This document shows, piece after piece, positions 5,077 to 45,560 of a DNA stretch of 64,000 bases. The DNA comes from Karstenula rhodostoma CBS 690.94. Its lineage: Eukaryota > Ascomycota > Dothideomycetes > Pleosporales > Didymosphaeriaceae. Position 1 is the stretch's first letter; the number at the start of each line of letters is the position of its first letter. The notes beneath the pieces are model-generated. The model did not search any database and was not told the DNA's origin. It was given only the letters and a program-made list of their open reading frames with translations. The stretch spans positions 562,181-626,180 of the forward strand of contig MU001497.1 in NCBI GenBank assembly GCA_010093485.1, in the 5' to 3' direction. Both the position numbers and the translations under genes were made by a program.

Positions 5077-6640
5077 ATGGTTCTGAATGCGGCCTTCGCG
5101 ACTGACGAGAATGTCGCACAAAATCTTCAAGATATAATGGCAGATATTGAAGATGCTATAACGTTGTCGAAATCCACATCAAACGAGCGTTGGCAGCCGA
5201 ACATGGGCGGAGTAGAACGTCACACCGTTCTCCGGGAGTGTGGCCCATATCCTCGTCCAAGAAGCGCACCGGCCATCTCTTCCAGTACAGGAAACGCCAG
5301 AGCGAAGCCTCTCGAGCGACTTGATTATTCCTTTCACAGCCGCAGAGTTGGATCCTACTCGTATGCCGAGGTTGCCGAGATTATACGGCTACTAGAGATT
5401 TGCTCAATTCCAGGGGCAGCAAAAGTGCCTCGGACATACATCGTCTTAAGGCGCATGCAACGCTCAGATATGTTTGAGCGTATCGTTGCTGCTGGTATCT
5501 CAGATAATCAATTCCCTGCGTCAGCAGACGGCCTCCCGAATAGTTTATCCTTGGATTAAAAATTCTGCTTTATTGAGCTTCAGCACTTTGTTATAGATCC
5601 GTCCATAGACTTGGAGCGAGCCGAAGACGGCACGCGTTAAATTTCTGGGAACCGATTGTTGACTCTTCGCGCGCTTTTGCAAGCCGCGGAAATTTCTGGG
5701 AACAAGAGTACGGTCCCTTTCTAACGGCATAAGCTCCTGGGTAAGGGAGCTTTTGGCGAAGTTGACTAAGTCATGAGCCTAACAACGTTCAAGAGTATGC
5801 ACATAAACGTGTATCTCGTCCCTCGGTACTCCAAAATAAGAGGAGTATCGAGTGTATGAAGACGAGATACAGATTCTCAAGCGCTTGAAGCACCATACCG
5901 TAAAGTACGTGGGCAGCTACCCAAATCCAACTGATCTGGGCCTGATAACGACTCCGATTGCCGACATGAACCTTGCTCGGTATCTCTAAGTTGCTGATGC
6001 TGGCGACCATGTTGAACTTCGAACATTATTTGGATGCCTGGTCAGTGGACTTGCCTATCTTCACGAATCAGGGTCCGACACAAAGACATCAAACCGCGCA
6101 ATATTCTCGTTCATTATGGAAACATTATCTTTGTGGATTTTGGACTCACCTTCGACTTTTTTGGGGCAGACAGCGATACAACAATCAACATGGTCAATGG
6201 CATGACTCCTCGATATTGCGCCCCAGAAGTCGCGGACTGCCTACCAAGGAACAAGTCGGCTGATGTCTGGAGCTTGGGCGTTGTATTTCTCGAGATCACC
6301 ATTCTTACTGGCGACGGCATCGAGTTCATGCGCACATTTCTTGATACACATGGAACAAAAGTTGACTGTGTCCAAAAGAATATATCAGGGCTCGCCGACT
6401 ACCTAGGCGAGCTTCGTAAGTTTACACATATGCAAGACGGTCTGTCACTGCAATGGATTGAAGATATGCTTCAGGAGGGGCCTCGGAAGTGACCACATAC
6501 TGCTTCAGACCATACTGGACGCACGAGGAGAGTCAGGAGCTTCTGATTTCTGCGGTATGTGCTGCACGAGAGGGTTTGAGATCCAGATCTGGTCCAAATA
6601 CAATCCCGTGTAAGGATTTGCGATCGACTCTCTCTGTTGC
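5077..6640 (+). pseudogene. Protein kinase pseudogene
   Basis: A Ser/Thr-kinase-like gene read in pieces. An N-terminal open segment (5077-5559) precedes a glycine loop GKGAFGEVD near 5740. Next come EIQILKRLKHHTVKYVGSY near 5865 and a catalytic loop HKDIKPRNIL near 6090 (HKD in place of the common HRD). DFG lies near 6140, CAPE near 6222 and DVWSLGVVFLE near 6265. The pieces are separated by in-frame TAA codons at glutamine-like positions and by apparent single-base losses (near 5790, 5855 and 6070). A 51-bp insertion with a 14-bp target duplication sits at 5639-5703, before the glycine loop. The motifs say it was once a complete kinase domain. The number and kind of lesions say it is dead. 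Confidence 0.8.
5639..5703. mobile_element. Tiny insertion with 14-bp target duplication (copy 1)
   Basis: A 37-bp insert (5653-5689) lies between two perfect 14-bp copies of AAATTTCTGGGAAC (5639-5652 and 5690-5703). It starts CGATTGTTGACTCTTC and contains CGCGCGCTTTTGCAAG, which copy 2 at 37.2 kb also has. The target is the kinase pseudogene. There is no coding capacity. A filler insertion made during break repair is an alternative to a retroposon. Confidence 0.75.
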
Positions 6641-6674
6641 TCAATGTTCTTACTTAACACAGGACGTAGGATGA

Positions 6675-7091
6675 TAGCGTGGATGATGACTGTCCCCGGG
6701 CGTTAAGGTTCCGGACCCTGCATCACGAACGAATACGAGCCACCAGCATGGCTAAATAAGCTTGCGGCGACTTCTTAAAGCTCGTGTGCGCGATCATATG
6801 GTGTTACGACGCCGAACAAACTATTTTGGTTTCTCATCCAATACTGATACTATGCCTGCTTCCATGGTCATCAACTTATCTTGTTTCCTCACCCACACCA
6901 AACGTAGCGACAAGAAAAAATTCGCTTTCGTACCCCTCGCATTAACTTAGGGCGGCCGATGCGACGCAATGCTGCACTTGGCGGCCCTGCAGCGTGCGTG
7001 CGGCTGACTAGGCATCAGCTTTTCTTCCCCGCACAAAAGCATACAGCGGCCTAGTTGAGAGCGAGAAGCCCATGAACAGATTCAGAAACCA
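6675..7091. other. Intergenic between two pseudogenes
   Basis: I see no supported gene. The right end would be the promoter of the Zn2Cys6 gene. Confidence 0.45.
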
Positions 7092-9011
7092 ATGCAGTCC
7101 ACCACAAAGGCATGCAATATGTTGACTGACGACTTATTCAAAGGTTGGTTGTCAGTGCCAGAAATAGATGGGTTCCTTGACACCGAAGCACCAAACCAGC
7201 AGGAGAAAGCATCAGTGCCGTCTTGTCCTGCTGGAAATAACACACAAAGGAGTCTTCGAGGCGAGAACGGACTCAACTCCACTGAAAGGCTCAGCAGGCA
7301 ACTGGACAGGCCGCGGCTCGGAAAGTTTGACGACAGTTGTCTACACCTGCCTCAGGTCGGCCCATCGCCAAGTGACACTACTTGTGCCGAACCAGGTGCT
7401 CGCAAAAGGCGAGGGCACACCAAGTCTAGATCAGGCTGTATCAGCTGCAAGAAGAAGAAGATCAAGGTAGATGTTGTTTCCCGATACGCACTAACTATAC
7501 TGATGCGTTGTAGTGCTAGGAAACATGGCCGACCTGCGCGAATTGCATTAACCGTGGATGTGAGCATCTCGAATTTTCCGAAGGCATTCTGACTTGACTC
7601 GGAAACACAGGCCTTTGCACATACCCCACCGCCTTCAAGTACACTCAACATGAACGTATTGTATCCGAAGTGCGCAAGACTCCACGACGGTCCATACAAA
7701 TATCCGACTCGCCGATGCACTCTATGTATGATGCGAACGACATGCACCTCTTCCATCACTTCATTATCGCCGCTCACCCCTGCATACCGTGCGAATATGA
7801 GAAAGTCTGGGTCATAGACATACCGAGGTTCAGTCATCAGGTATTTGTATCCGGATATAATTCATTCAAAAGCTTACAATTATAGTACGAGTATCTCATG
7901 CATGGCATGCTTGCGATAGCTGGTTCACATCTCGACCTATTCAGTGACGATCCGAGAAGCGATATAGCCTTACTACATCGCCAAAAAGCCATAGTAGGCC
8001 TGGAAGAAGCGTTCACAAGATGGCCACCCTGCGCGGATGAGGCTCACGTTATGCTTGCCACTTCTTACTTGCTTGCTTTCCAATCTTCATACTTACCCGA
8101 TGGGCTCCTTGACCATATACTTTCCTTGCGAGGATGCGCTTTGCTTTCTCAGCTAATTCTCACTGATCAAATCAAGGGCGTTTTTACGATAGACCCCGGG
8201 ATGTATGGAGCATGGCTTGAGTGGAGAATGGAGAGCTTTCCAGTTTTCGATCAAGAACTCGCGCGCGAGGCTCTGCGCTCTATCGCCCAACTCGCATCAC
8301 ACCTAGCTCTAGCAACTGCCCAAGACATCGAGCGCGCCAATTATTGCTCGATTAGCGGAGATACTTCGACCATTACTAGTTTCCACAGGCCTACAAGGTC
8401 CACCAGAAAATGCACGACCAGCTGTACCCGAGTACACTGAACCTACACAACCATCAACTGCGAACCAGGAAAAACACCCGTCGGTCAGCTTTCCAGATGC
8501 TGCCACGAACCCACTCTTCCCAGCTAAGCTAGCTCCCAATTTTGAGGACATCACCTCGTGGGAGACAATCACAGAAGTACCAGTCAACCAACAACCAGAT
8601 TTACGTCGCAGTTTCCAGGCCTTCATGCTCAGCCTCGCTATCCTGACCACCTGGCCGCGCGAGCAAGTCCTCGCCCTATTCTCACCCAAAAATTCTCTAG
8701 GTAGCGTCCTCGTCGCGCACTTCTGCTGCGTGCGCTTCATTACGTCGCCCTTTTGGGCCCCGGATTCTGCACTTCGGACGACGCCTATGAGAGCGATAGT
8801 GGAGTGGTGCGAGAAAGCGGTTGATGCGGTTGCGGACGATGAGGAAGTAGAGTGGACGAAGTTTGTCCGATGGCCGCGGAAGATCTTGACAACGATGCGC
8901 TGTCTGCTGGGCCAAAGCAGTGGGCTGACGCTGGGACAGTTGCATGATGCGCTGTGCAAAGATGCCGCTGCTTTTCGTGAGGGACGGCCTGTTCGACTGG
9001 AAGGGGTGTAG
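7092..9011 (+). pseudogene. Zn2Cys6 transcription factor, broken
   Basis: A fungal binuclear zinc-cluster regulator. Inferred exons are 7092-7466, 7514-7559, 7611-7840 and 7886 onward. The cluster reads HTKSRSGCISCKKKKIKC, stop, ETWPTCANCINRGCLC, so all six cysteines are in place, but a TAG (7517-7519) directly follows the third one. CAG to TAG would explain it. Splicing six bases later, at the TAG itself, would skip the stop but delete that cysteine. The middle region (LMHGMLAIAGSHLDLF and onward) is typical of the regulatory domain of fungal zinc-cluster proteins. A one-base loss near 8335 shifts the frame (ERA then PIIARLAEILRPL). The C-terminus continues open to 9011 in the other frame. 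Two independent lesions argue for a pseudogene. Confidence 0.82.
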
Positions 9012-11785
9012 TCGGAGATGGGAAATCGCATGCTGCCACTATCTTCTCTGTGCATTACGACATCGAGATTTGGGTATAATTTCTTCCATTGATGAGGCCC
9101 CCCTATGCAGACCCAGATAGCTACCTTAATCACTAGGATAACGACCGCGGTCACTACTTGAGAATGTTATGAAAGTAATGCGCGCTACGATAGCATGGTC
9201 TGTCCCTCGCAGCGTCCCCGACTTTGTGTCCAGGACGGACAAAAAAGCCTCGAAGCCGAGGAAGCTATGCGCCTACGCCTACAGGTCAGAAAAAGCATCT
9301 AAGCACATCTGCGCGGATTGCATCGACGATAAGCGCCCCTATCATCTAACGTTCATAGATCCAGTCTGCCAGAAAGTGCCCATACCGAGCACAAAGATGC
9401 CATGCCACACGTAAGCGCAGTCACACGGCATATCCTACTTCTCACCCGTAGACGTGATTGGCGGCACATTTCGAGACGACGTTGCCGATATCTCACAAGA
9501 TTAACATTCCCGCGGTAGCACAGCAATCGGCCCCGACTAAACAAGATTGAAGTCGAGGCTATGTTGGAGAAGGAAGGCAAGATACACGATGGGGCGGGCC
9601 GTTGCGACATTATCCTGCGGCACAGTCTCCGCCACAAGGAAGCGGATCACCGCGGGACGGAAGGGGCGCGGATCCATGCCGAGCTTGGGGGTTAGGGTGC
9701 TCAGCGCAAGACAATTGGGGTTGGTCTGGGAACATGTGAACGACGTGTCGAAAGTGATGGAATGCTACGCCTCATGGTAGATTGTACTGACGTAGTGGAT
9801 GAGCCGCTATGTGCCTGCAAGGTACGCGCCTTCAGCAGTCTGGATCTAAGCGCTCGGCCTCTGTCATAGATCGGTGAACGAAGTCGAGCTGCAGGAACAC
9901 GTTCTGCATGCTCACGAAGAGCTGGAATTGCAGCCACAGAGCGCGTAAGAGGGGGTCGTACCTGGATTGACAAGCGGGGCGCGCGGTGGATGGGTGGTTA
10001 TGCGCGCAGGGCTGGCGGTAATGGAGGTGGTGTTCACCATGCAGGGTGGGGCGGGTCGGGATATGGGTCGCTGGGCGCCTAAATGACGGAGTTGGATGTT
10101 TGCAAACTTCAAGCGGTTGCTAGGACACGGTGAGAGGCCGACTTGGAGACCGCGGACTGTGAAGGTGCCGTTTCGAAGCAGTGTCAATGATTTGAGATGT
10201 GTTTGCTGGGCCGCGTGTTGGGCCGAAATCTGGTAATCACTGAACAGTACGGTGTGAACTACGAGAACGTGGTGCTAACGTGGACCAGTGGATGCACTTC
10301 GGTCCCAGGTGGTCGGTATTGTAGGACTCTCGTGCCGCACTGTCACTAGAGACTGCGGTGTAGGGCATGTCACTTGAGCTTGGTGATTGTTCAAGCTAGA
10401 GTGCTATAGTGGAGGCACAACGCACTGAAAGCTCCTTCCATCCAGATCTCCAACCATTTTCTTGTTCATTGTTCGTTGCCGAGTGTAACCTCTTTGGTCA
10501 CACTTTTCGACAGAGATCGCAGGTGGAGCGAAGGTTATCGTGATTTCGACACCGCCAAAGCTTGAACGACGGCTAGGCCGGATGCGGACAGCAGGGCGCT
10601 TACCAGGCAAACAACAGCCAACCGACCCCCTTCAACACCATCCGACCCCCGCTTCGTATGCACCACCTGCACGTTCCGTCTCATGCAACGTCAACCCCCG
10701 TCGCCATTCGCTAGGTGCGCGCAATCATGCGAACGGGCACGCCGCAACGGAAGAACGGCGACTCCGCACTGGCGTTCTGCTGCCGAGGCCGTACACGAAA
10801 TCTGAGCCTGATTCGACTGCCGTGCTAGGAGATGGCGCGCTATGCGGAAACACTTCGTGTTCATCGGTCGCGGATGAAGCAGACGCACACTGCCCGGCTA
10901 TGATTGTTACCAACTGCTCACCTCCGGTCTGACATGAGACTTGCATTCATCCAGACAAGGTCGAGGCGTGCCTGTCTGCTGTGCGACTTTGCAAAGACGT
11001 CAATCCACCAACACGCGGTAACGCGGGATGTCGAATCCATCCGCTGCATCTACGCCGCCTCCCGCTTAGCGTAGTCCGCCCTCAGCAGGTCAGGCCGCCC
11101 CACAGTCATTGGCTTCGCGTTGCGCTCGCCACTCACAGACTGAAGCTGCACGGTGCTCAGGATGCTGATGCCCCATCGCCGAAAGGGCCCCAATGCGAGC
11201 AGGGAGCGCGATATTGCCCGTCCCTTTTCGTCAATCGGCCTCCTCGGCACCATGGCCCAGCGCTCATTATCACATCCTGGCCCAATAGCATAGAGACTTG
11301 CGCGGTGCGAGCGGTAGAATCAGAACGTCGTTGGTTGCGGATACGCACACACACCCTGGACCTTGCACAAGAGCTAGCGGCACAGCTCCCGCCCGCTATC
11401 TGATCATCGAAGCCCAAGCGCGGTCCATTTGTACTGCGCTTATCCTCTCTCCCGAACTACGAATCTTAGCATCAGTTGCGCAAGTTGCTGTTGGAACGAA
11501 AGAGCAGGGCCTCCGCTATTGTATTTGGAACAACGTCGCATAGGGTTCTTCCGCCGTTCGCAGAAGCAAACACCAACCCCAAACACGAATTACTCTGCAT
11601 CATCACCGCCCACCAGGAGTCGTATCCGATGTAGCAAAGGATCTGGCCCACTACTTCACGCATTGTCCGCCGATTTCAACGTTTTGGCATAGACCAATCG
11701 TCCGCTTTCGAATACGCTTCTGCTGGCAGAGGTGTTCCATCAGCAGGCTCCACGGTCTCGTATCCTTGTGATCCAAGTATCCGAC
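9012..11785. other. Long stretch without a supported gene
   Basis: Several frames of 60-140 codons are open on both strands, but none shows a domain, a family start or coherent splicing. A short segment near 9540-9690 reads as a charged helix but has no start. The last few hundred bases are the promoter of the reductase gene. Confidence 0.4.
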
Positions 11786-18317: not shown

Positions 18318-21300
18318 TTACCCTGCAACGCTACGCCTGTAAAGGTATTCTACTACTGCAGGATGGCCTCCTTTTACTGCTGCCTGCAGTGCTGTTTCAC
18401 CGTCAGTGACCTTCCCTTGAAGCAGCCGCTTGACAACTGCGAGATGGCCTCCTTCTGCTGCTGCATACAGTGCTGATCCTTCTTCAAGAAAGGCTTTCTT
18501 TTGAAGTAGCCGCTCAACTACTGCGAGATGGCCTCCTTCTGCTGCTGCATACAGTGCTGTTCTTCCACCGTCAGGGTTTGCATCAACATTGGCCTTCTCT
18601 TGAAGTAGCCGATCGACGACTGCGAGATGGCCTCCTTCTGCNNNNNNNNNNNNNNNNNNNNNNNNNATCAACATTGGCCTTCTCTTGAAGTAGCCGATCG
18701 ACGACTGCGAGATGGCCTCCTTCTGCTGCTACCTGCAGTGCTGGTCTTTCACGGTAGGATACTGTATTAATACTAGCCTTCGCTTGAAGTAGGCGCTCAA
18801 CAACTGCAAGATGGCCTCCTTCTGCTGCTGCCTGTAGTGCTGTTTTTCCGTTTTCCTGTGCAGCAGCTGCGTTAACATCGGCTTTCTTTTTAAGTAGCCG
18901 CTCGACAACTGCAAGATAGCCTCCTTCTGCTGCTGCCTGCAATGCTGTTCTTCCACTGTTAGATGCTGCTGCTGCATTAACTTTAGCCTTCTCTTGAAGT
19001 AGCCGCTCGACGACTGCGAGATGGCCTCCTTCTGCTGCTGCCTGTAGTGCTGTTCTTCCATTTGTGTGTGCTGCTGCTGCATTAACGTCGGCTTTCTTTT
19101 GAAGTAGCTGCTCAACGACTGCGAGATGGCCTCCTTGCGCTGCCCATGACAGCGGCGTCCGACCATTCCTATCCTTAGCGTTGATGTTGGCCTCACCCTT
19201 TTTAAGAAGCATTTTGACCATTACTTCGTGTCCGTACTGTGCTGCTACTAACAGTTGCTCCTGATTATAGCCTTCATCTTTCGGCAGTAGGTTGGTACCT
19301 TTGTCAAGCAGTATATTGACGATAGCCTCGCACCCTTCCTTAGCTGCCCACGATAGTGGCGTCAGGCCATTCGTGTCTTTAGACTCCATGTCGGCGCCCT
19401 CATCAAGCAGTACATTGACGATAGCCTCGCACCCTTCCTTGGCTGCCCACGATAGCAGCGTCCGACCATTCCTATCCTTAGCGTTGATGTTGGCCTCACC
19501 CTTTTTAAGAAGCATTTTGACTATTACTTCGTGTCCGTACTGTGCTGCTGCTAACAGTTGCTCCCGATTGTAGTCTTTATCTTTTGACAGGTGGCTAGTA
19601 CCTTTGTTGAGCAGTATATCGACTACTGCCTTATTCCTGTAGTGGGCTGCCAAAGACAGCGGCGTCAGGCCATAGTAATTTTTGGATTCCAGGTCGGCGC
19701 CCTTATCAAGCAGCATATTGACGATAGCCTCGCACCCTTTCTCGGCTGCCCACATCAGCGGCGTCCGGCCATGCTTATCTTTGGATTCTAGGTCAGCGCC
19801 CTCATCAAGCAGCATATTGACAATAGTCTTGTGTCCTTTCTCAGCTGCCCATGATAACAGCGTCTGACCGCAGTTGTCAGGCGAGTCGGCATCGATTTTG
19901 CCTGATTTGAGCAGCACCTTAACGAGGGCATCATTCTTCATCCAAGCCGCCCACCGTAGGGGTGTCAGTCCATCTTTATCCTTCAAGTCAGTCTTGACGT
20001 CGGTCCGAGCTAGTAGTATCCTAACAAGCGTCGTATGTCCTCCTATTACTGCGTGCGTTAACGCAGTTCGGCCATATTCATCTTCAAAGTTGGCTTCTAT
20101 GTCGCTTCGTGTTAACAACAACCATACGACTTCCTCTAGTCCTCTTTTTGCCGCACGAAGTAGTGATGTTGGCTCCCCCCCGAAGCTCATTAAATCTTTC
20201 AGCGCATTATCAGTATAGAGCTCCGGGGCGATGTTATCGCTATTTCGAGGGGATTTCGCTATTAGCCTCCCTGTGTGGATACATATCCTCCTTGTAGGAT
20301 ACTGCGACAGCCTGAATTTTCTGCGATCGAACATTTCGAATTCCTCAGTCCAAACTCTTGAAAACGTTTCCATTGTCAAGGACAAATCTCGTACGTAGAT
20401 GGCAATCAATTTATCTTCTCTGCCTCTTTCTTTACAATGAAGAATCGCAAGCCCAAGTCCTTGACGGCCCTTGCCCATGAAACGGACTTCCAAATAGATT
20501 CCTCTACTACTCATAGTCAAGGGGCTGTTGATGGCGTTGAAAGGGTTCGATTGGACGATCTTGTGGGAGCCCATGAATGAGGCTGCAGAGGTGGCTAGAA
20601 GCCCGCCACGATTGTCAGAAGATCTCCATGCAAAGAGACTGTGGTCATCTGAGATCTTCATTATTTCCTCTTGAAGTCTGAGGAAAGCTCTTTCTCCTTC
20701 TCCGTAGAGTAATGGCATGTTGATGCCAAATATGCCAATTAAGCAATAGGCCCGATCTTCAAGCCTTTTTGTTTCCCTCTTTGCGGCCCATGACATTCTT
20801 TGCGCGATGCTTATCCTTTCAAGGTCATCGCTTCCAGCAAGGACACCTTCAGGAATACCGGTACAGCCTGACACACTTTGTTGAAGGTCTGCCCTGGTCC
20901 CTAATCTCTTCCATTCCTCATCAAAAAATATCATTTCTGACGGCGGAGGCAATTCTTGAAGGGTCCATCCTCTGGTGAACCACCTACTGCCTGAGAATTT
21001 GGTTTGAGACGGCACATCGGCAAGATAAGCGTAGCATACATTGGCATTCTGGTACCAACGGTACATTGAGTTAATTGCTTCGGATAGCTCCGTGCTGCTT
21101 CTCTTGTCAATGCAACAGGTGTCGATCCAAAAATACTGCAAGCCATCCAAATTTGCTTGTTCTGCGCAGAATCGGATCTTCCTATAACCAGGTTTATTCT
21201 TGCCAGTGCCATTCATCAGGTCTTCAAAGGTAACCTCCTCGGCATCGACTCCCCATGTATGTGAAAGTATCGCATAGCTAGGAATGCCTTCATCGTCAAA

Positions 21301-21348
21301 CCGAGTGAGAACAATTTTGCCAGTGTCGCAGCGTTGCAAAAGACGCAT
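18318..21348 (-). CDS. HET-domain protein with long ankyrin-repeat array (contains gap)
   Basis: Candidate heterokaryon-incompatibility or innate-immunity receptor. Translation should begin at 21348 (MRLLQRCDTGK), the usual HET start, not at the upstream in-frame ATG. The HET domain covers about residues 1-230: AILSHTWG (26-33), WIDTCCIDK (74-82), RWFTRGWTLQEL (122-133), EDRAYCLIGIFGINMPLLYGEGE (197-219). A linker is followed from about 400 by ankyrin repeats of about 33 residues. The early repeats are diverged. The later ones are nearly identical (AEGGHLAVVERLLQ and variants), and a block of about three repeats ending AKDRNGRT is itself duplicated. A 25-N gap (18642-18666) breaks the array. 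Because the N count is arbitrary, the two sides lie in different frames here, but each is open. The protein ends YLYRRSVAG. No NACHT domain is present. Confidence 0.9.
18642..18666. other. Assembly gap (25 N) inside the ankyrin array
   Basis: The gap is flanked by two identical 60-bp segments, 18582-18641 and 18667-18726. Both encode AEGGHLAVVDRLLQEKANVD on the minus strand. The assembler evidently failed in identical repeats, so the true number of repeats is unknown. Confidence 0.97.
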
Positions 21349-22030
21349 TACTTCGCATAGAGCTGAACTAGAGCAGTAGGAATGAATCTCGGTCAGCCTG
21401 ACCCAAAGAGACCAGCAGCGCAACTCGATTATCCGGTAAGAATCTCGACTTAACGACTGGTATCAGTGACTATATAGAGGAGGCAGTGCACACCAAGCAT
21501 ACCGAGAAATTGCACCTTCAAGAGAGATAGTGCTAAACTACTGGAAGTGGATTTCGCTATGTGTTGTCCTTTAAGATGAAAGTCTATCTGGAGAAGAGAG
21601 ATGTGAGTAATTTAATGGTACACAAGGTAGACGAAGTAAGAGAGGCGAGCGAGGAAGGCAGGCAAGGGGGCCAGGCAGCGCTGGCAAGGCAATCGGAATG
21701 CATTGTAAGGCACATATCATGCATAAACAGGAACCTCAGCAACCAATTACAACGTGTCATAGCCGCTGGTGGCGCTCATTGTGCAGCGCCTAGCTATATA
21801 TAGATCCTTGACGGGCTGCAGGATCCAGATACAGTGAGTTTAACAGCGCCAAGAAACTGGATACGGAGAATTTAACAGTCTATACAGCGAGTGGAGTAGA
21901 GAAAACTAGGCTTCCCGTCTGCTCAGCTATATATAAGTAGTGTACTAGTAGATTAGTAGCTACGTGGGTGACCGGCAGCGAATCCCCGCTATTGTATATT
22001 TTTGTTTTGTCGCGGTATGCAAATTTTTGC
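21349..22030. other. Intergenic upstream of the HET gene
   Basis: Promoter side of the HET-ankyrin gene. The open frame at 21561-21803 has no recognisable features. TAGTAG-rich sequence near 21930-21970. Confidence 0.45.
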
Positions 22031-22044: not shown

Positions 22045-22310
22045 CCATCACGTGATTCTTTGACGAGCGCCCGGGCCTGCCCTAACCCACTACCTAGCTA
22101 GTGCCTAGCGCTAACCCTCCTACTCACTCTGTGTTCCTTTTGTATCACGTTTGGACGGCAGTCAGTCCATGTTTGTCTATCACTTTACGGGACACTACTT
22201 TGTAGTTCGAGTCAACAATCAGAAAACCACTCACTCTGTGTATTACTTTACAATAAAAATCATAACCTAATAACTGTTATCTTTGTGGGTTTTTTTGCGG
22301 ACGGCAACAC
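22045..22310 (+). repeat. Dispersed repeat, left copy (interrupted)
   Basis: Shares with 28655-28780, in the same orientation, the ordered blocks TCACGTG, GCCTGCCC-like, ACTCACTC, ATTACTTTAC[A/G]ATAAAAA and CCTAATAACT. The left copy carries extra material, including the tiny insertion at 22122-22241. The two copies flank the P450, enoyl-reductase and ABC-transporter segment. This could be the edge of an old transposon. Confidence 0.6.
22122..22241. mobile_element. Tiny insertion with 11-13 bp target duplication (copy 4)
   Basis: A 94-bp insert (22135-22228) lies between two copies of ACTCACTCTGTGT (22122-22134 and 22229-22241). Its last 49 bp (22182-22230) match, in reverse complement and with one mismatch, the insert at 45268-45316. 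The paralogous sequence at 28.7 kb has a single, slightly diverged ACTCACTC block and no insert, so it represents the empty site. The segment TGTAGTTCGAGTCAACA can be drawn as a tRNA-like T arm and the copy ends AAAACCAC. Confidence 0.75.
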
Positions 22311-31608: not shown

Positions 31609-31646
<38 letters not shown>

Positions 31647-35921: not shown

Positions 35922-36845
35922 TCAAATAGGAAACGCCAGACCGCCGATGATCCCAGCGAAGACAAGTGCAGACCTGCCAGGCATCGACGTAGCACGAGCA
36001 GCACTCGATGATGAAGGCTCCTCAATTTCAGTTTCAGTTGGCGTTGGTCGAGCTCGCAACGCTGCTACGCTTGACATACTGCTCACCATTGCAGCATCAG
36101 GCTTCACCGCGCAATTATCTTTGCTCGACACCTCCCTAGCCTTCTCACATGTATCCGTGCTCTCGACATTTATTTCCCCCATACTTCCAAATTGCGCACA
36201 ATTCCCCGCAACGTTTCCAAGTTCCTGAGGGTTCGGGTAGGATATGTTTCCGGCCGGCCAATGACTTCCTGGGCTTGGTGTTTGGTTCAGGGTGAAGAAT
36301 ATATTTCCGCGCAAGTTACCTTGCATGTCTCCACAGGTCTCGTTCGAAAATACAGACCATTGGAGGTACCACTGCAATGAATAGAGATACTTTTGTTCGG
36401 GCCGTTCAGGAGCAGCATTGGGCCTCCAATTTGTTGTGTTTGTCGAGTTGACCAAATAGTACGGGGATCCATCGGGATTGACGAAGTTAGAGACTTCGAA
36501 CCAGTCCGGAGAATCTCCCTCTACATATAGTCCACGTGGCCTCCAGTCTTCCTCACGTCCGTATGGCATGATAGCCCACACAAATCGGGAGTGACCGAGA
36601 GCAAGGGTCGCATTCATGTGTTGGAGGGCGAACACGACAGGTAAGTAGTCTGTGTAGTTGTAGGTAGTATTGGCGCGCGGGAATACGACATCGATCTCGA
36701 ATGATGGACGGCCGGTTACTGGTGTGGGTATCGTTTCGTTCAAAGTTGCACTTGTAGCTGTCGTGGTGGTCGTCGTCTGGCACATCGTGAACGCGCTGAA
36801 TGCAAGCCACGCACCGAAAAAGAATGGAAATCGCGCCATGATCAA
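35922..36845 (-). CDS. Secreted, probably GPI-anchored protein (DUF7136-like)
   Basis: Single exon, 307 aa from 36845 (or 305 aa from the Met two codons later). A signal peptide (ARFPFFFGAWLAFSAFTMCQ) precedes a Thr-rich spacer and a core domain (PSFEIDVVFPRANTTYNYTDYLPVVFALQ). There are many N-glycosylation sequons, and paired cysteines occur as in fungal wall proteins. The C-terminal part is Ser/Thr/Pro rich and ends in a short hydrophobic segment (SALVFAGIIGGLAFPI), the pattern of a GPI-attachment signal. I associate the core with the fungal DUF7136 family, from memory and with moderate confidence. Function unknown. Confidence 0.82.
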   Translation of the reverse strand: MIMARFPFFFGAWLAFSAFTMCQTTTTTTATSATLNETIPTPVTGRPSFEIDVVFPRANTTYNYTDYLPVVFALQHMNATLALGHSRFVWAIMPYGREEDWRPRGLYVEGDSPDWFEVSNFVNPDGSPYYLVNSTNTTNWRPNAAPERPEQKYLYSLQWYLQWSVFSNETCGDMQGNLRGNIFFTLNQTPSPGSHWPAGNISYPNPQELGNVAGNCAQFGSMGEINVESTDTCEKAREVSSKDNCAVKPDAAMVSSMSSVAALRARPTPTETEIEEPSSSSAARATSMPGRSALVFAGIIGGLAFPI

Positions 36846-37525
36846 GCCGCAATCTTACACGTGAGTATTTGGGATCGTCGCGGTATTCGCATTGGCCTTG
36901 TTTAGGTACTTATGCGTATGCAGAGCCCCTTGCACCGGCAACAATGTCCCGGAGGATACGCGCCCCAGGCTGCACATGTGGGTGCCGAGGTATCGTATCC
37001 GAGCCAAAGATTAGGCTAAACAACGCAGCTAAGTCTCCATGAACTCGATAACACGAAGGTAAGCTTTATCTAAGGACGAACTGGCGAAGAGCACTGAAAT
37101 TCATGACGAACCTCGGCAGTATATTTGACGGTCTGATGATCTTTATGCATGAGGCCAAAGTCGAATGAAAATGCAGTCACTCGATTGTTGACTCTCCGCG
37201 CGCTTTTGCAAGCGCGCGGCAAGACGCAGTACAGGAACTCGATGGGGTGCCAAAACACAGAAATGCAGTTACTCGAACACAACCAACAATGTATCGCTCG
37301 AAATGTGAGCGCACCAACCCTCCAAGGCGCTTCCGTTGACTTGATGTGATCCCGCAATTCCATTCACCGTTCCTTGTATTCTTCAAACCGGACCATGAGT
37401 CCCCGAGCGCATCACCTTGTAAATCTGAGCACGGTCAGCTTGCTTGCAAAGCCTGTTCCATTGTTAGTGACTCGTACCTAGTTGTATTTACGCCTTGGAT
37501 ATGATGTGAGGCTTCAGAGGTCCAA
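36846..37525. other. Intergenic with a tiny insertion
   Basis: No gene. Holds the insertion at 37169-37276. Confidence 0.5.
37169..37276. mobile_element. Tiny insertion with 16-bp target duplication (copy 2)
   Basis: A 76-bp insert (37185-37260) lies between AAATGCAGTCACTCGA (37169-37184) and AAATGCAGTTACTCGA (37261-37276), with one mismatch. The insert begins TTGTTGACTCTCCGCGCGC and contains a perfect 10-bp inverted repeat (CCGCGCGCTT / AAGCGCGCGG) around a 4-base loop. It shares about 30 bp with the insert at 5.65 kb. Confidence 0.72.
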
Positions 37526-38488
37526 TCAACGCCGTGAGAATTTAGGCCGCTTCTTCACTGCCATGCCGCGCTGCGCAGAGGAGAACGGAGTCCTCTCCTT
37601 CTTGCTGGGAGCAGTAGTAGAGGGTGAGCCTGTGAGAGGCCTGCCGTTCTCATCGACAGAAAAGTCATCATCTGAATCCGAGTAGGTCTCCTCACCGCGA
37701 ACACCAGCAGCCTGCAACGCATTGTCTGTGACGGTCACAGCAGCGGTCGAGAACGTGTGAGCCACCGAGGTTGCGCCTTTCGTGGAGAACAGGGAATGTG
37801 GGCTGGCACTAGTTGGGCTGGCACTGGTCGGGCTGGTGGCTGCCTGCGTTCCTCGGAACCAGAAGCTTGCAGATTTTGCAGGAGTCTGGACGGATCCTCC
37901 CATGGGCGAGACATTAGCATTGGTGCCGTACAGACAAGAGCTGAATCCGTTGTCGGCACTAGCCCTGGACAGCAAGGGCAACGAAAAAGTGCTGTTTGTA
38001 GCTGGCGAGCCCCACTCTCGGAGAACCTTCTTGGTCTCACCTCGAGGGGTTTTGTGTTGAAGTTCGCGGTTGGGGTTGACATGGGATGGTTGTTCGAACT
38101 GTCCGAACGCTTGTCCTTGCTTGATGACTGCAAAGCCGTCAACTTCATGTGTCGCCCGCAGTTTAGGCTTCCGCTCGAGCTTCGCTGAAGGGTGTGCATT
38201 CTCGATGGTGACGTTGAAGCCCGTGTCCGCTTTGAAGACCTCCGCATTGGGGCTTCCAAGAAGCTCGCTTGAGGGGTCAATGTGCTCTACAGCCATCCAG
38301 TCATCATCGTCAGTTTGCATGTCATCGGGTGTAGCCTCATCTGTCTCGCCGCGATCTCGCTCCTTTATGTATTGGAGCGCGAAGTCGACCTTGTGCATGG
38401 CATGCAATGCGTCCCACTGTTTGGCGACCTTTGTGTTCTTTTGGTAGTTCTTCGCAATACGGTAAGTCCTCTTAATCTTAGAGAACAT
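37526..38488 (-). CDS. Basic orphan protein
   Basis: Single exon, 320 aa. The N-terminus is basic and helical (MFSKIKRTYRIAKNYQKNTK), followed by an acidic patch (DDMQTDDDDW), long polar low-complexity sequence with a small SPTSASPTSASP repeat, a second acidic patch (YSDSDDDFSVDENGRP) and a basic end (AVKKRPKFSRR) that could be a nuclear signal. No domain recognised. Coding status is supported by length and by consistent composition. Confidence 0.65.
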   Translation of the reverse strand: MFSKIKRTYRIAKNYQKNTKVAKQWDALHAMHKVDFALQYIKERDRGETDEATPDDMQTDDDDWMAVEHIDPSSELLGSPNAEVFKADTGFNVTIENAHPSAKLERKPKLRATHEVDGFAVIKQGQAFGQFEQPSHVNPNRELQHKTPRGETKKVLREWGSPATNSTFSLPLLSRASADNGFSSCLYGTNANVSPMGGSVQTPAKSASFWFRGTQAATSPTSASPTSASPHSLFSTKGATSVAHTFSTAAVTVTDNALQAAGVRGEETYSDSDDDFSVDENGRPLTGSPSTTAPSKKERTPFSSAQRGMAVKKRPKFSRR

Positions 38489-38821
38489 CGTTGCTGCTGT
38501 CGGTGTTATTCGCAGTCATGGATGTAGACAGAAGTCTATCCTTGTTAGCACTTGAGTTATCCACGACGAGAATGTGCAGGGTGCATTACCCCTTCGAACG
38601 CCTCTTCGACCAATATCAGTTTATCGATGGTCGCCTGCGGTCGTGTACTGCAGTCGCGTAAGGGACGGGGGAACGGGTGGGTGGTCAGGTAAGAGTTTAT
38701 GAATATAGTCTGGCGGGTTTATGTAGCCTCGAGCATACGGTCAGTGAAAGAATCACTTCGGACTAACTAAAAGGGGATCGAGCGTTACTAGATTCCCATG
38801 CCAAGATCAATTGGGTGAATT
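38489..38821. other. Intergenic
   Basis: Nothing recognised. Confidence 0.5.
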
Positions 38822-40985
38822 TTAGTATGATCTTTGCACTGGTGGCACGCTCTTGCACTCCGCCTCATCCAGAGTGTTCATCGTCACTGCACGGGTCGAC
38901 CAATCCACCTCTTTACCCACGCCTTTCTGCCACGTCAAGCTGTGCTTCATCCACTTCTCGTCGTCTCTCTTTTTGAAATCATCTCGTGCATGTGCGCCGC
39001 GACTCTCTGTTCTTGTAAGCGCTGCCTTGCTGGTCTGAACAGCGTTTGTGAGCAAGTTTCGCAGCTCAAGAGTTTCTACCAGGTCCGAGTTCCATATCAG
39101 GCTCTTATCAGTGACCTTGAGATCGCTTTCGAACCGCTTCTCAATGTCTTGTAGCTGGGCATTACCAGTAACGAGGGAGTCCTGGGTACGAAACACTGCC
39201 GTCGTGGATTGCATCGTGCGCTGCATCTCGTCTCTCAAGGAAGCCGTCGAAGACGAGCCGGACGAGTCCAGTATTATCTGAATTTCTTGTATAGAGTCCA
39301 ATCCGACCTCCGCTGGGGCGGAGTGATGAGGCGCCGAGGGCGCAAAGTTTTCCGTTATGTGTAAGGCCGTCGCTCGTCCCTATCTGATGTGAATAGCTGT
39401 ATCTTTGTGCACTGTCAATAAGGGACTTCGCTTACAAACACAACGATATCAAGAAGAGAATTGGCACCAAGCCTGTTCGCGCCATGTACGCTGACACACG
39501 CAACCTCGCCTGCCGCATACAATCCGTCCACTACTATTTCCTTTCCATTCCGTACATCCAAAACCTGTCCCTTGAAGTTAGTCGGCACACCGCCCATGCA
39601 ATAATGGACTGTTGGCAAAACAGGAATAGGCTCTTTCGTGATGTCAATGCCGGCAAAAATTGCAGCAGTCTCGGCAATCCCTGGCAACCGTTCCATAACG
39701 ATATCTTTTGGCAAGTGGGATAGTTGCAGGTGGATGTGATCTTTTCCAGGTCCACATCCTCGCCCTTCTATTATCTCCAGGTTCATGCTGCGAGAAACGA
39801 CATCTCGGCTTGCAAGGTCTTTCGCTGTTGGTGCGTAGCGCTCCATAAAGCGCTCGCCCGCCCCATTGAGAAGATAGCCCCCCTCACCACGTGCTCCTTC
39901 GGTGATGAGGACCTACGTCTCGTTAGTCGGTCGGGGAGTTTTGAAAAAGGACATAAGTGGACTAACACCAGCACCATAAATACCGGAAGGATGGAACTGA
40001 ACGAACTCCATGTCTTGGAGGGGGAGGCCGGCTCTCGCGACCATGGCGTTTCCGTCACCAGTACTCGTGTGCGCGCTTGTTGCAGAGAAGTATGCTCTAC
40101 CGTAGCCTACAGCTGTTAGCTAATATGCTTCATTTTCACAAAAATACTCACCACCGGTTGCTAGAACAGTGTTCCTCGCAAACATGCGATGACAAGTCCC
40201 ATCTTCCATATTCAAAGCCGTGATTCCAACACACTTCCCGTCTTCCATCATCAAATCTAAGGCGAAGTACTCGATGAAGAATTGTACACCGTGTTTCAAG
40301 CTTTGGCCATACAGGGTATGAAGCATAGCGTGACCAGTTCTATCAGCAGCACACGCGGTTCGATACGCCTGTCCACCTTTTCCGTATTTCAGTGACTGAC
40401 CTCCGAGTGCTCGTTGATATATTGTGCCTTCTGAAGTTCGCGAGAAAGGCATTCCATAATTCTCAAGCTCGACGACTGCGGGTATCGATTCTTTCGTCAT
40501 GTAATGGATCGCATCTTGGTCTCCAAGCCAGTCCGAACCTTTGACTGTATCGTACATGTGCCACCTCCAATCGTCCTCGGTCATGTTACCAAGAGCAGCA
40601 TTTATTCCTGCTAATGTCAACCGGGATACGCTTCCAAGTGCACTCAAGGCTCACATACCGCCTTGCGCAGCTACAGTATGCGAGCGCGTCGGGAAGAGCT
40701 TCGAAACGCATGCCGTTTCCAACCCAGCCTCGGTGAGGCCTACTGCTGCACGCAGCCCAGCGCCTCCGGCGCCAACAACAATTGCACTGGGCTTGTTGAG
40801 TTCCGATCCGTTACAATAACTTCAAAAGAAACTCACTCGTAGTGGTGATCAATGATAGTCAGCCCTATTGCATCCCCTCTAGTCGCAAATCCCCGTGCAT
40901 TGGGGTGGAATCCTGGTCTCTTTCTCAGGAACGAGCGTCGCGTGCCAAATCTCTGGCGTTGGATTGCTCTCGCAAAAGAATGCAT
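38822..40985 (-). CDS. SDH1: Succinate dehydrogenase flavoprotein subunit (Sdh1-like)
   Basis: Complex II flavoprotein that oxidises succinate to fumarate at the inner mitochondrial membrane. Six exons (40985-40837, 40786-40659, 40607-40152, 40106-39967, 39912-39436, 39379-38822) join to 635 aa. The presequence [20 protein letters not shown] is mitochondrial in type. FAD-binding [21 protein letters not shown] with the histidine that binds FAD covalently, [11 protein letters not shown], and [23 protein letters not shown] are all present, and the end PPVQRSY fits the family. QFHPSG replaces the usual QFHPTG, and the C-terminal third ([22 protein letters not shown]) is more diverged than I expect for the main enzyme. 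It may be a second paralogue. Confidence 0.92.
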
Positions 40986-41711
40986 TGCGACGGGCAAGGA
41001 GACTCGAAGGTTTGAAATGTAAGACGACACGATATGTAGGAAATAAGCTCAGGAAGTCGGCGCTAAGTATGCATTACCCCAGGCCGCTGGAAGCCCCTCT
41101 CCTCTGTCCCTCGGTTACTTGTATTGCGCAGATGTCAAGGCAATCGTCGACATTCGAGAAAGTGAGTTCGCACTAGTAGGCACGCGAATAGATATCAAAA
41201 TTTCCCTTGAGATAAATCCAATCGTGCATTGCAAGGAAAAGGCCCTGGTCGCTGTGCGACTTTGAGGCAAGTGGTTGTCGTACGTGGCGGAGGATGGAGG
41301 GTGACGCCAGAGATGTCAGGAACGCCCGACTCAACCAATCGGAAATAACTTGTTTCGAATAAGAGACACCAAGTACCCGAATCTAAACCTTTTCCATCAG
41401 CAAGTCGGCTATATCATTTCAACACCGTACAGTGATGATTTGTTTTGAAATCTGTATCATTGAACACGCAGTGAAAAGCCCCGGCTTTTGAAATGGTAAA
41501 ACAAAGCTACAGCAACGACCCTTCTCAAAACGCAACCAGTACTGCATTGAACATATCTAAGCAAAGATAGACCTGTTTCCAGGAACGAAAGCAATAACGA
41601 GTATTGTTCACCAAGTGCACCAGTATCTGCGTCAATCAAGCCCCAATCCCCAACGACCCAACTATTTCAGCTCTACTGTTTGTTTCGTGAATAAGTATTG
41701 GGTAGGGCGAC
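40986..41711. other. Intergenic
   Basis: Upstream of SDH1 and downstream of the defensin gene. No gene seen. Confidence 0.5.
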
Positions 41712-42151
41712 CTAACCAAAGATGCACTTGCAAGTGTGGTACAGGAACCCACCACAAAATCCACCAGTACGACCGCCTCCGAGGCTCTTGCACTGAAGAG
41801 AACGTCAGCAACTCAAATATCCGCACGGTGAATGACAGCTTGGTTATTTACGTGTTCGTTGCACTCGTAACGAGAGGAAAGGACTCCGCAGCCAAAGCCC
41901 CTGGCTTCTAGATCCGGCTTGGCTTCGCGAGCTTCGACAGCGCTCTCATCAGCTACACCCCATGGAGAATCGCCTTCTACGTCGACATCGACATCGAGCT
42001 GACGGGCTTCAACGTCGAACGAAATGGCATCGGCTTCGGCCACTCGAACGTCGAGAGGAGCCGCGCTGTCGAATTCGGTGGCAGTCGGGGCGGCTACCGC
42101 GTTGGCGGCAAAAGTAAGCACGGCGATAGCGACAATTTTGGAGAAGTACAT
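41712..42151 (-). CDS. Plectasin-like CS-alpha-beta defensin precursor
   Basis: Secreted antimicrobial-type peptide, 126 aa, exons 42151-41852 and 41792-41712 with a 59-nt intron. The signal peptide is MYFSKIVAIAVLTFAANAVA. An acidic propeptide carries repeated EAR motifs (VEAR, VEAR, LEAR). The predicted mature peptide is 42 residues and starts GFGC, as does plectasin. Cysteines fall at 4, 13, 17, 29, 37 and 39, giving CX8CX3CX11CX7CXC, with CNEHCKS and a GFC gamma-core. This is the cysteine-stabilised alpha-beta fold of fungal, insect and mollusc defensins. The propeptide ends in a single Arg where Kex2 sites are usually dibasic. Without the splice only two cysteines would be encoded, which makes the join convincing. 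Target (bacteria or fungi) cannot be told from sequence. Confidence 0.9.
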
Positions 42152-43031
42152 TTTGATAGAGTGGATGAAATTGAAGACTTGAAAGGATTGTCTGGACCGA
42201 GGTATGCTGGAGTTGAGTTGTTGCCGATTGATTGTTCGATGCTGGATGCTGATGCTGATGCTGATGCTTCAAAGAAGTGCAATGCTGCAACCTCTTTATA
42301 CGTTCTTCTCTCGCATCGCAGCATCTATTTCGTATCTCGAGATATAGATAGAGATGCGCGCGTTGTTTCTCAACCCTTTCGTACCCTCAAACAGCAGTCC
42401 GCAACTGTGCACTACCCTTTCCAACCGCTTTCAGATGAACGCGAACGATACGGCAGCTGCCCCATCATGCCGAGCCTCGCCAAACCATTCCCATATGGTT
42501 TTCCATCATATCCAGGGATCGTTTGGCTGGTGCACCCATCCGCATGCAAGGGGACGTCGGGCTTCATGTCATGCGCTCGTATCCAGTTCAGCTCGTACGA
42601 TCGTACCTGTCAGGCTACGACCCCGCATGGCCACACTTTGAAACAAGCCCCCATTCGTATGCCGGACTTGTTAGTCAAGTAGCGAAATAAATAGTACGTT
42701 TGTCTCTGGGCATACCTCCCGGTGCACTTGCAAGAAGCTCGACTCAGATGATCACTGCTGCAAGAAGACTCAGTGGACCGAACTATGATAGCTAGTCACG
42801 AAGAGGAGAGAAAGGAAAGGTCTGCGAGAAAGGGAGCCTCGAAAAGTGAAACGGATATTCCTGCGTTTTGGAGTGCAGACCCGGACTCGTTCCTTCTTGA
42901 CCGCTACAACGCCCACACCGTTAACGCCTGCTATTTCAAGTCATCAGACGAGCTCCCATTACCCAAGTTGTCATGCCGTCGTAAACATTACCATCTCATC
43001 ACGCCATCTCGAAGTTCGCAGTCGGGTCATG
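42152..43031. other. Defensin promoter and intergenic region
   Basis: A TATAAAG box lies on the minus strand at 42300-42294, about 143 bp before the defensin start. GATGCT repeats (about 42244-42268) lie in the probable 5' UTR. No gene between 42400 and 43031. Confidence 0.55.
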
Positions 43032-44102
43032 CTAGTTTGACGACCGCAGCCATTCGTTCTCTAGAGGTCCACGTTCCTGCCCTGCATCATCGCTCCTGCC
43101 TTCAAAGATGTTCTCCACCTCCTCAGTGCCCGACTTTATGGTCTTGTGCGCTCCATTCTCGACATCGCCGTCGCTGTTGTCTTCCTCTACTCGGTCTGAG
43201 TACCGATTGAAGTCGGGCAGGTAACCGATTGCTCGGCGAGAACCGTCGTTGTCGTTGTGATCCTCGTCCGCGATTATGCGCGATACTCGATCAGGAACTA
43301 CGCTGTGCAGCCAGGACTCTCGTTGTGTAGGTATCGCAATGATGGCGAACTTATTATTATTAGTAGTGAGAATAAGAACAGCAGCTTAGTAATGGTGACT
43401 AACCTGCCACAAAAATACAAGCGCCACGGCCGCCATCAGTATACCTGCCATTCGTTGCTCCTCGCTTTTCCATGGGACTAAGCAGCCGTTCGTACGGCCA
43501 AAGGCATCTTCACATGCCGTAGCCTTGTGCGTTTTATCCGGAAACGGCCATGCCATATCGCGAGAATTTTTCAGCCCGCAGCACTTCAATGAATCTTGTA
43601 TCGTGCGTACGGCCTCTGCATCTTTGTGTCGGTAGAGGGTCTCCCATCGCCCGCGTAATCCGCAATCCAGTCCTGAGGGTGGGGCTGCATGGGTCCCAAG
43701 CAGTGTAATTACGACGGTGGAATAGATGAAGATCAGCGTGTTCGCGATGATCACAAGTGGCGGGCGCTGGATGTCTCCGCGATTGAGTCGCTTGCGACGC
43801 TCCTGCAGACGGGTGAAATCGTAGCCGCCTTCGAGAAGGAGGCCAGACACGACCGGGAGGAATGTAGTCGCGTAAGCCAAAACATTGGGTATGGGAAGGG
43901 AGAGTTTGGTCGCGAACGAGGCAGCATATCTAGCACAGGTTAGCTGCAGGTTGAGAAGATCTTCTATGTCTAGTCGTACGCTGCGAGTGCCGTAACGAGA
44001 ATGAGATACTGTATTCTGTTAGGCCATCTCCCAGGCTGAAGCGAGCTCGCCACTTACCACAACGCTGATGGTTGTCACGACTTGCTTCCTACTGTAAGTC
44101 AT
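43032..44102 (-). CDS. Tetraspanin (fungal Tsp3-like)
   Basis: Four exons (44102-44058, 44008-43980, 43929-43404, 43316-43032) join to 294 aa. The first two are very short (15 codons and 29 nt), as is usual at the 5' end of this family. Four membrane segments are seen, with TM1 in TISVVYLILVTALAAYAA. The large outer loop contains the tetraspanin signature CCG (SLKCCGLKNSRDMAWPF) and further cysteines, followed by MAGILMAAVALVFLW. The cytosolic tail is long and acidic. Organises membrane microdomains. Related fungal tetraspanins act in growth and host penetration, but the role here is unknown. Confidence 0.85.
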
Positions 44103-45205
44103 GTTGATAAGTTAATGCCGGGGCTATCAGGAACAGTGTGTGGGGAGACGGTTCTCAAGGGATTACGCGTCGTCGGAAGAAAGTGAGGGAGGGATTGTGG
44201 TCAGCGGCGAGGCTGTGCCTATGTTTTGAAGGCGCGATAAGCTTCTCCGCACGCCGCGCGCTGTGCGCAGGAGGAGGGGTAAGGTACCTATCATTTGGTA
44301 CCTTCATGCAGCGACGCACCGTATGAGAGCCCACAGGATTGGTTCACCCGACCGACCCTGGCAACCCAATCAATTGGCAACATGATGCACGGAGATAACT
44401 CCCGCGCGAAAATCGCATCCAACAAACGACTTCATCAAAACAGCAATGCGCGGTCACTTTTGCGATGGCATCGTGTTAGCGTAGCAGTCGTGTTGAAATG
44501 TACATGAACTACTTTGCGGTCTGCTTGACCATGTCCGAAACCACGCTTCCTTCCTGTCTTCAATATTGCTGTATAGCTTTTCCGGGGCATCGTATTTGCC
44601 GTATATTAGCAGGCTTCACTGCCATCGCTAATCCACCTTTAGATACCCCATCTGCAATGTTCATTGCACTTCCACATGTCATGGCCTTTCCCATTTCCAG
44701 AGTCCTACGACTTCCCGCTCTAACAAGAATGGGCGGAAGAAGACAAAGCAGCGTCACAGAACATCCCACTCATTTCGCCTTTCCTCAAGTACCCCGTAGC
44801 GAAGTTACCAGCTCACTTATCCTGTTATGGTAATAGCAAAATAATTTGACACGAGTATGCATTGTCCACGCGTACATGGGGCGAGCTCATACCCAAAGCG
44901 GAAACTTTTTTAGCGCGGAGGAGCCGGTGTACACCCTCTAGCTCTGTATAAATTTGTCATTGGTGCCTTTACTCCAAAATCGTTGTGATATTTAGGACTC
45001 ATATAAGCGATTGTCGTGTCTTTTATTGGTTCATGATGCAACACATAAGTGCTTTGCTAGAGAAGATGCGGAATATGCAGACATAGATCTTCCTGTACTC
45101 TAGCTCCTGTGGAAAATTTGAATGATTGACGCATATGAGCGATCTAACATAAAATGTAAACTGTGTAGTTCAGGCCGCCTCGCCCAGGCTCACATCTTCC
45201 CACAA
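44103..45205. other. Intergenic
   Basis: Tetraspanin promoter on the left; the rest is AT-rich. Open frames near 44500-44830 look like chance. Confidence 0.5.
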
Positions 45206-45560
45206 CTAGGCCGCCTCTTCCAAAGTGATAACTCCATCGCCGTTCGTATCGTGCCTGGAGGATCATTGTGGTTTTCTGATTGTTGACTCGAACTACAAAG
45301 TAGTGACCCGTAAAGTCTGGAGGATCATTAACGCAGTCCGAGGCACGGTCTACGTTTCAACTTACCGCTTGAACATGCTCACCCAATACTCATGAACCTC
45401 AGTATTATCGGCACTGATGTTCATGTACTCGAGGTAGGCAGCCAGAGAGATAGACCCGGAGCCAGTCTTATCGACCTCGTTGAACGTCGCCTCGATTTCC
45501 GCGTCAACATCAGGCTTAAAAGCCGCAGGAAGGTCGCTAATTTGCTTGTTGCCGCGGCCA
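45206..45560 (-). CDS. EF-hand calcium-binding protein, 3' part
   Basis: Two exons can be defined: about 45560-45366 (encoding NEVDKTGSGSISLAAYLEYM) and 45254-45206 (HDTNGDGVITLEEAA, stop). The last loop, DTNGDGVITLEE, is a canonical EF-hand; the first, DKTGSGSISLAAY, is weaker. I could not find a start codon. An acceptor CTGCAG at about 45560 suggests another exon upstream, but no in-frame ATG joins cleanly, so the gene may be truncated. The intron is 111 nt. A 62-bp insertion (element plus target copy) accounts for the excess over the usual 49. Confidence 0.65.
45255..45329. mobile_element. Tiny insertion duplicating an intron 3' splice site (copy 3)
   Basis: A 49-bp insert (45268-45316) lies between perfect 13-bp copies of CTGGAGGATCATT (45255-45267 and 45317-45329). 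On the gene strand each copy reads AATGATCCTCCAG, so both carry a splice acceptor. The insert matches 22182-22230 in reverse complement with one mismatch. The original intron would have been 49 nt. Confidence 0.82.

Follow-up and report, generated by a model that had tools for sequence, protein, structure and literature searches.

Short tagged inserts in the Karstenula rhodostoma genome are very probably severely truncated retrocopies made by LINE machinery

Stringent-type recognition of an RNA tail by a long interspersed nuclear element (LINE) is exemplified by UnaL2. For the zebrafish LINEs ZfL2-1 and ZfL2-2, experiments show that the LINE protein recognises a stem-loop in the tail (PMC4176376). 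Fungal pairs of a short interspersed nuclear element (SINE) and a LINE with shared 3' ends include Mg-SINE and MGL in Magnaporthe and SINE2-1_BG and Tad1-24_BG in Blumeria (PMC3747384), and in Aspergillus fumigatus the 3' terminus of AfuSINE2-1a resembles the 3' untranslated region (UTR) of the Tad-clade LINE I-1_AF, the AfuSINE2 families having duplications of 4-14 bp (PMC5063351). The MINE element of Magnaporthe (WEIRD-MGL) joins a cellular transcript to the 3' part of a LINE and is flanked by direct repeats of 10-20 bp (PMC2104539). Here, we analysed a window of 64,000 nucleotides from K. rhodostoma CBS 690.94 (contig MU001497.1; C6:562181-626180) that contains four short inserts bordered by direct repeats, together with the copies of these inserts elsewhere in the genome, and we conclude that the inserts are very probably retrocopies with severe 5' truncation that LINE machinery made by target-primed reverse transcription (TPRT).

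The inserts, which belong to two unrelated bodies referred to as A and B (B1 being one type of B end), and their repeats lie in the window as follows.

5639-5652, no strand: target duplication, left copy of the direct repeat AAATTTCTGGGAAC
5653-5689, RNA sense on the minus strand: B1 retrocopy of 37 bp, RNA 3' end at 5653, tag GATTGTTGACTC at 5654-5665
5690-5703, no strand: target duplication, right copy of the direct repeat AAATTTCTGGGAAC
22122-22134, no strand: target duplication, first copy of the direct repeat ACTCACTCTGTGT
22135-22228, RNA sense on the plus strand: A retrocopy of 94 bp, RNA 3' end at 22228, tag (complement) at 22209-22220
22229-22241, no strand: target duplication, second copy of the direct repeat ACTCACTCTGTGT
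37169-37182, no strand: target duplication, first copy of the direct repeat, AAATGCAGTCACTC
37183-37260, RNA sense on the minus strand: B1 retrocopy of 78 bp, RNA 3' end at 37183, tag at 37183-37194
37261-37274, no strand: target duplication, second copy of the direct repeat, AAATGCAGTTACTC, with one mismatch
45255-45267, no strand: target duplication, first copy of the direct repeat CTGGAGGATCATT
45268-45316, RNA sense on the minus strand: A retrocopy of 49 bp, RNA 3' end at 45268, tag at 45278-45289
45317-45329, no strand: target duplication, second copy of the direct repeat CTGGAGGATCATT

An earlier note on this DNA had reported four inserts bordered by direct repeats, and all four were located with their repeats; the third insert measures 76 bp, as given there, when a shared GA is counted with the repeat. 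The tag that the note had described as common is present in every insert, and its two subfamilies are real, corresponding genome-wide to body A (the inserts at 22.1 and 45.3 kb) and body B (those at 5.65 and 37.2 kb), each of which has the one fixed and one variable end that the note had described. The tag GATTGTTGACTC occurs exactly four times in the window, and allowing up to one mismatch likewise yields four matches versus 0.38 expected from shuffles. BLAST of the window with long A and B copies found no fifth copy.

In the genome of 44,326,383 bases, the exact tag is present 203 times versus once for the reversed pattern; by arithmetic, a 12-mer should match about five times by chance on the two strands of 44 Mb. 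Copy numbers given here rest on exact tags; first-look similarity searches returned 305 candidates for A and 204 and 359 for B, of which the best 40 of each were scored. We read 134 exact-tag rows, a non-random sample of the 203, which correspond to 132 distinct sites because two were second reads. By sequence, 96 rows carry body A, 33 carry body B, and five were unassigned, one of these (L045) being a variant A and the other four (L055, L070, L101 and L106) looking like chance matches. The genome search with a listing of flanking repeats, which the earlier note had proposed as a check, revealed direct repeats with a score of at least 10 at 77 of the 132 distinct sites (79 of the 134 rows) versus 5 of 670 control pairs in which the upstream and downstream sequences were taken from different sites. 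Repeats above this threshold, which leaves out shorter ones, are 10-18 bp long, except for one of 22 bp (L060) that includes element sequence.

Two nested cases bear on the origin of the repeats. In L064, a copy of B with the second type of end (B2, described below) lies inside an A copy and 14 bp of A are duplicated, while in L020 an A copy lies inside a B copy and 12 bp of B are duplicated. Removal of the insert and one repeat restores, by eye and with few base differences, an A-like and a B-like sequence, respectively. Read as sequences, L064 and L020 thus provide paralogous empty sites indicating that in these two cases the duplications arise with insertion. The earlier note had considered that the flanking repeats might predate the inserts; the paralogous empty sites answer this in the two nested cases only.

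The fixed end of A reads ...GAGTCAACAATCAGAAAACC(AC). In 67 A copies with script-set boundaries, the target base adjoining this end is T in 54 and the next base out is A or G, also in 54, while at the opposite edge of the duplication even the commonest base reaches no more than 24 of 67. The preferred target, [A/G]T, is confined to the fixed end; this nick-site preference was measured in A only, and it fits priming at the 3' end of an RNA. The pattern thus fits an RNA sense given by the strand that reads GAGTCAACAATC, with the fixed end as the putative RNA 3' end. Because the far end is variable, there is no constant second end of the kind that a miniature inverted-repeat transposable element would have, and the duplications measure 10-18 bp. 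The longest copies of A and of B show no common 5' end.

Inserts of the 67 A copies range from 28 to 334 bp with a median of 111 bp; because the second repeat was sought within 480 bases, inserts beyond that length would go unseen, and a number of long A copies were fetched through a high similarity rank. L133 is an A copy spanning 615 bases that is internally rearranged, and L022 contains about 330 bases of A once a nested insert is excluded. A stretch of 96 bases starting about 200 bases from the A fixed end has just four genome matches, which is in line with the shortness of the copies, though heavily mutated copies could escape. Some copies have an irregular structure. The 27-base A fixed end is doubled in tandem in L020, L023 and L045, which were read, and at C16:185679 and 185706, where the doubling is judged solely from the 27-base spacing; it looks as if reverse transcription had restarted on the tail. 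L019 contains, near position 3500, an A copy and an inverted A fragment in head-to-head arrangement, and the fragment has no terminal tag. The long A copy of L022 (C1:2751581-2758592), the outer repeat of which is AATGATGGAATCAT / AATAATGGAATCAT, is split by an insert that is AT-rich, measures about 0.9 kb and has the inverted ends ATCACGAAAAGTTTT / AAAACTTTTCGTGAT.

We next consider the LINE partner. The genome contains 105 RVT_1 matches, mostly with several stops. In one LINE, L140 (C4:2652900-2659000), an open frame encodes 1279 residues and matches Exo_endo_phos_2 (8.7e-14) and RVT_1 (4.4e-24), and a C-terminal piece in another frame displays a CxxC...H...C pattern by eye with no Pfam match. 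Among the scored candidates, the proteins nearest to that of L140 show 34% identity over 53% and 36% identity over 29% of the query, the latter being a Fusarium xylarioides record. The 3' UTR of L140 terminates in GCGCGAAGTATCAAATTTG, and its last ~95-100 nt match the terminal part common to the B copies. With 901 bases of the L140 end as query, the best 40 of 359 candidates comprised L140 itself and 39 matches that cover only the last ~100 nt; none of these 39 covers the coding part. The pattern CAAATTTGATACTTCGC is present 26 times in the genome, including the LINE, versus 0 for the control. Judged from these matches, the C4 LINE is the probable partner of B, and its protein may have made the copies. 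The earlier note had seen no full-length partner, which holds for A but not for B, for which there is the C4 LINE, though with the B2 tag. The search for a parent among tRNAs, snRNAs and LINE ends that it had suggested accordingly turned up a LINE end for B and no tRNA or snRNA. No Rfam family was found up to E 1 in six loci and no tRNA by ARAGORN in seven, and there is thus no support in the sequences searched for a tRNA, 5S, 7SL or snRNA head, all of which we rejected as candidates. A tRNA-like 3' end of A, noticed by eye, was also dropped because no caller detects one and B has no such end. Two further loci, L144 (C19:444600-447300) and L145 (C15:526400-528600), contain single frames resembling reverse transcriptase (RT), which we take to resemble a stand-alone RT gene and telomerase.

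B copies end in one of two ways. The B1 end, the kind found in the window, consists of a hairpin followed by GAGTCAACAATC, and the B2 end of a hairpin followed by GTATCAAATTTG or close variants, the LINE's own tag. A 3' end match with an element encoding endonuclease and RT exists for B2; B1 has the same UTR with a different tag, and no such match was found for A. The hairpin has eight pairs and is the same before both tags; its changes are one-sided with no compensatory pair changes, and the A hairpin is weak. Among B2-type tails, 12 of 16, a set that has no control, have a duplication score of at least 10, the other four being L020, L140 (the LINE), L161 and L162. The GAGTCAACAATC tag is common to B1 and A, the bodies of which are unrelated, and we estimate that an exact identity over 12 bases at this position is very unlikely to arise by chance (<1e-5). 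The A/B1 tag is presumably recognised by an RT, and the tail would be the recognition site of the LINE. In the literature searched, the tag appears in print in only one, unrelated, paper on astrocytes.

The body of B revealed a further feature of the template. Upstream of the LINE-like tail, the B body on contig C17 near 1027500 (L162) is interrupted by two introns (48 and 47 bases, both GT-AG). The second intron, at the d/e junction, is exactly missing in all seven two-exon copies that were fetched (L039, L109, L135, L136, L137, L138 and L163), and in L136 and L138 the first intron is also missing across its junction. Genome-wide, one of 14 places has the second intron; of the remaining 13 matches, 11 start at query position 48, which is the exon start, one at 50 and one at 40, and some of these intron-less copies cross into the next exon. 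Intron-bearing L162, a putative gene, versus intron-less B copies is a feature of processed pseudogenes. Because the introns are missing from the B copies, we infer that these copies were made from a spliced RNA, with the fixed end as its probable 3' end; intron gain at C17 is, strictly, still an alternative. L162 (C17:1027200-1029750, minus strand) is organised in successive exon-intron units of 85-100 bases, with introns that end alike (CTGATTTTCGTAG and similar) and exons that share the start TGTGAG, as if the units were duplicated; by eye, further intron-like units lie upstream. L162 shows no target duplication, and its tested frames matched no Pfam family at cut-off. In L135, near 240-480 and close to the exon c/d joint, lies an unrelated insert of about 240 bases between flanking GCTCACAG repeats. 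Many B matches begin at the last-exon start, and at least two copies, L029 and L167, seem to end within a few bases of it; plain random truncation would not account for this.

The earlier note had favoured TPRT of the LINE/SINE kind, and this reading is supported by features observed directly: the many copies, the duplications in the nested cases, fixed ends opposite variable ones, a target preference at one end, the LINE tail and the missing introns. Specifically, an endonuclease would cut one strand after [A/G]T, and the freed 3' end would prime reverse transcription at the RNA tail. Synthesis would then halt early, typically after about 100 bases (28-334 nt in the A copies counted), for a cause that we can only infer, and joining would leave a target duplication of ~10-18 bp. 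The template for B would be a spliced RNA, the last ~95 nt of which match the 3' UTR of the C4 LINE. Given its spliced body and this match, B is SINE-like and carries a LINE tail; A represents either what remains of the 3' end of a lost LINE or a second family of the same kind as B.

Several observations weigh against retroposition by LINE machinery. At 55 of the 132 distinct sites, four of them chance matches, no duplication reaches the threshold, and a few of the 77 repeats (L045, L060) are internal or tandem repeats rather than plain target duplications. A poly(A) or simple-repeat tail is absent in the great majority of A copies, and the earlier note's statement that there is no tail mostly stands, in that 4 of 67 A copies have three or more consecutive T (A in the RNA sense) ahead of the fixed end; of note, such a tail is not a hallmark of all LINEs. 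For L140, there is no duplication within the 8.3 kb read, and it carries the B2 tag and not GATTGTTGACTC. The 13 intron-less places include copies that merely end near the exon start (L029, L167). For A, no intact or autonomous parent was found, and the A tail is absent from nine RT-related or neighbouring stretches (L140-L146, L162 and L164). Finally, the empty-site evidence comes from nested copies within this one genome.

Among other explanations, the one that survives best concerns A. It holds that A derives from the 3' end of some LINE of which no intact copy survives, so that the A copies are dead-on-arrival LINE stubs and not SINEs, and we give it about an even chance. The longest A copies (L130, L133, L134 and L022) are open on the RNA-sense strand and encode a related peptide around EIIP; the frame stops ~225-250 nt before the fixed end, as measured in L130 and L134, and by eye two A subfamilies keep it with conservative differences. 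This suggests that the frame may be the C-terminus of a lost LINE. The parentage of A is unproven, however, because a genome search with the 40-residue C-terminus of L133 matched only L133's own place, the EIIP-region peptide, searched as a composite query with one candidate, had no scoring relative in the protein collection, and none of the RT loci scanned carries the A tail. The A pattern also has no match in the viral contigs searched.

Long A copies differ in their mutations. C-to-T/G-to-A changes per site amount to 0.080 in A copies of 220-260 bp (n=11) and 0.087 in longer ones (n=3) versus 0.019-0.028 in shorter copies, about a three- to fourfold excess. This load correlates with length (rho 0.34, p 0.009, n=57), other changes not being denser, in a count that left out L129 and L131 (second reads) as well as four copies that are nested, self-repeating or aberrant (L133, L045, L020 and L064); a previous count without most of these exclusions gave rho 0.32 (n=74) with pieces of L133 as outliers. 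For exact-tag A copies only, the correlation vanishes (n=47, rho 0.09, p 0.56). The denser C-to-T changes may reflect a length threshold for repeat-induced point mutation (RIP) or an ascertainment effect; because the correlation is gone in exact-tag copies and the sample is biased, we do not claim a length effect of RIP.

For B, one could argue that it is an ordinary LINE with introns in its own 3' end, the coding part being L143, which lies ~2.4 kb upstream of the intron-bearing B body on C17 and on the same strand. We consider this improbable, because these ~2.4 kb contain more intron-like units, the B tail finds its match in the C4 LINE, and none of the B copies read extends into coding LINE sequence.

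The main alternative in the earlier note was templated break-repair filler, considered here as filler, templated or captured, inserted at double-strand breaks, where the filling-in of staggered ends would mimic duplications. The inserts are indeed very short and variable, and rearranged copies exist, such as L020 with its doubled 27-bp end, the inverted pair in L019 and the internally deleted B copy L039. Filler is nevertheless very unlikely, given the single fixed end in two families, the restriction of the target preference to that end, the duplication of single-copy sequence in the two nested cases and the spliced template. Equally hard to sustain is the idea that the inserts are left ends of a DNA transposon with the other end lost or variable: by eye, the opposite strand of long A copies offers TATAAAA, ATGTCGAC... 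and a GT...AG stretch, but the duplication length and the far end are variable, splicing fixes the sense strand of B, and the RNA-sense strand of A is open in L133, L134, L022 and L130 with the related EIIP peptide. The other strand of A had been tried as the sense strand for the same TATA box, an ATG and the intron-like stretch, and was likewise overturned by B splicing and the sense-strand frame of A.

Returning to retroposition by LINE machinery, we tentatively propose a fuller scenario, which we regard as possible rather than probable. A spliced host transcript would have gained a LINE tail of ~95 nt in its 3' UTR and become a large mobile family without an RNA polymerase III head; the last 12 nt would serve as an exchangeable address, GTATCAAATTTG being that of the LINE and GAGTCAACAATC that of A; and RT would stop so early that the LINE is one copy amid stubs, most of them too short for repeat-directed mutation. 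The length limit of routine repeat annotation lies at or above that of stubs of 30-150 bp, so the activity of LINEs in fungi with compact genomes may have been underestimated. About two hundred tagged insertion sites are available in these families, and at many of them the duplications can be read; a single body bearing two alternative 12-nt tags constitutes a natural experiment on the choice of RNA by a LINE; and the copies provide a length series for asking which repeat length is needed for RIP-like mutation. Among neighbouring genes, a frame of 946 residues on the minus strand (window 18583-21423) belongs to a HET and ankyrin-repeat protein family. For one protein of the window, the best match that bears a species name comes from Glonium stellatum (75% identity over 65% of the query).

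The literature searched, mostly without subscription papers, contained no report of these families or of a spliced-body SINE-like family with exchangeable tags. B resembles Mg-SINE/MGL and SINE2-1_BG/Tad1-24_BG in being a non-autonomous fungal element with a 3' end in common with a LINE, and differs from them in that the known heads in those pairs are tRNA (PMC3747384, table), while the B body is a spliced transcript and its copies are very short. It likewise resembles AfuSINE2-1a in a 3' terminus similar to a LINE 3' UTR, whereas AfuSINE2-1a has a tRNA-derived head and ACT repeats at the element end (PMC5063351). With MINE, B has in common a transcript body joined to a LINE 3' part with flanking direct repeats; however, MINE consists of full-length WEIRD and 5'-truncated MGL (PMC2104539), whereas in the B copies read the joint between body and tail is constant, truncation proceeds from the body side, and introns are present at one locus. 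Similar to ZfL2-1 and ZfL2-2, B has, near the 3' end, a hairpin and then a short unpaired tag, but it involves another LINE and two tags on one body, the B tail being a putative recognition site. We conclude that the mechanism has good support and is of an ordinary kind, and that the shortness (median 111 bp in A), the near-absent tail, the spliced body under a LINE tail and the 12-nt tag common to unrelated bodies make these families an unusual variant of fungal LINE/SINE retroposition.

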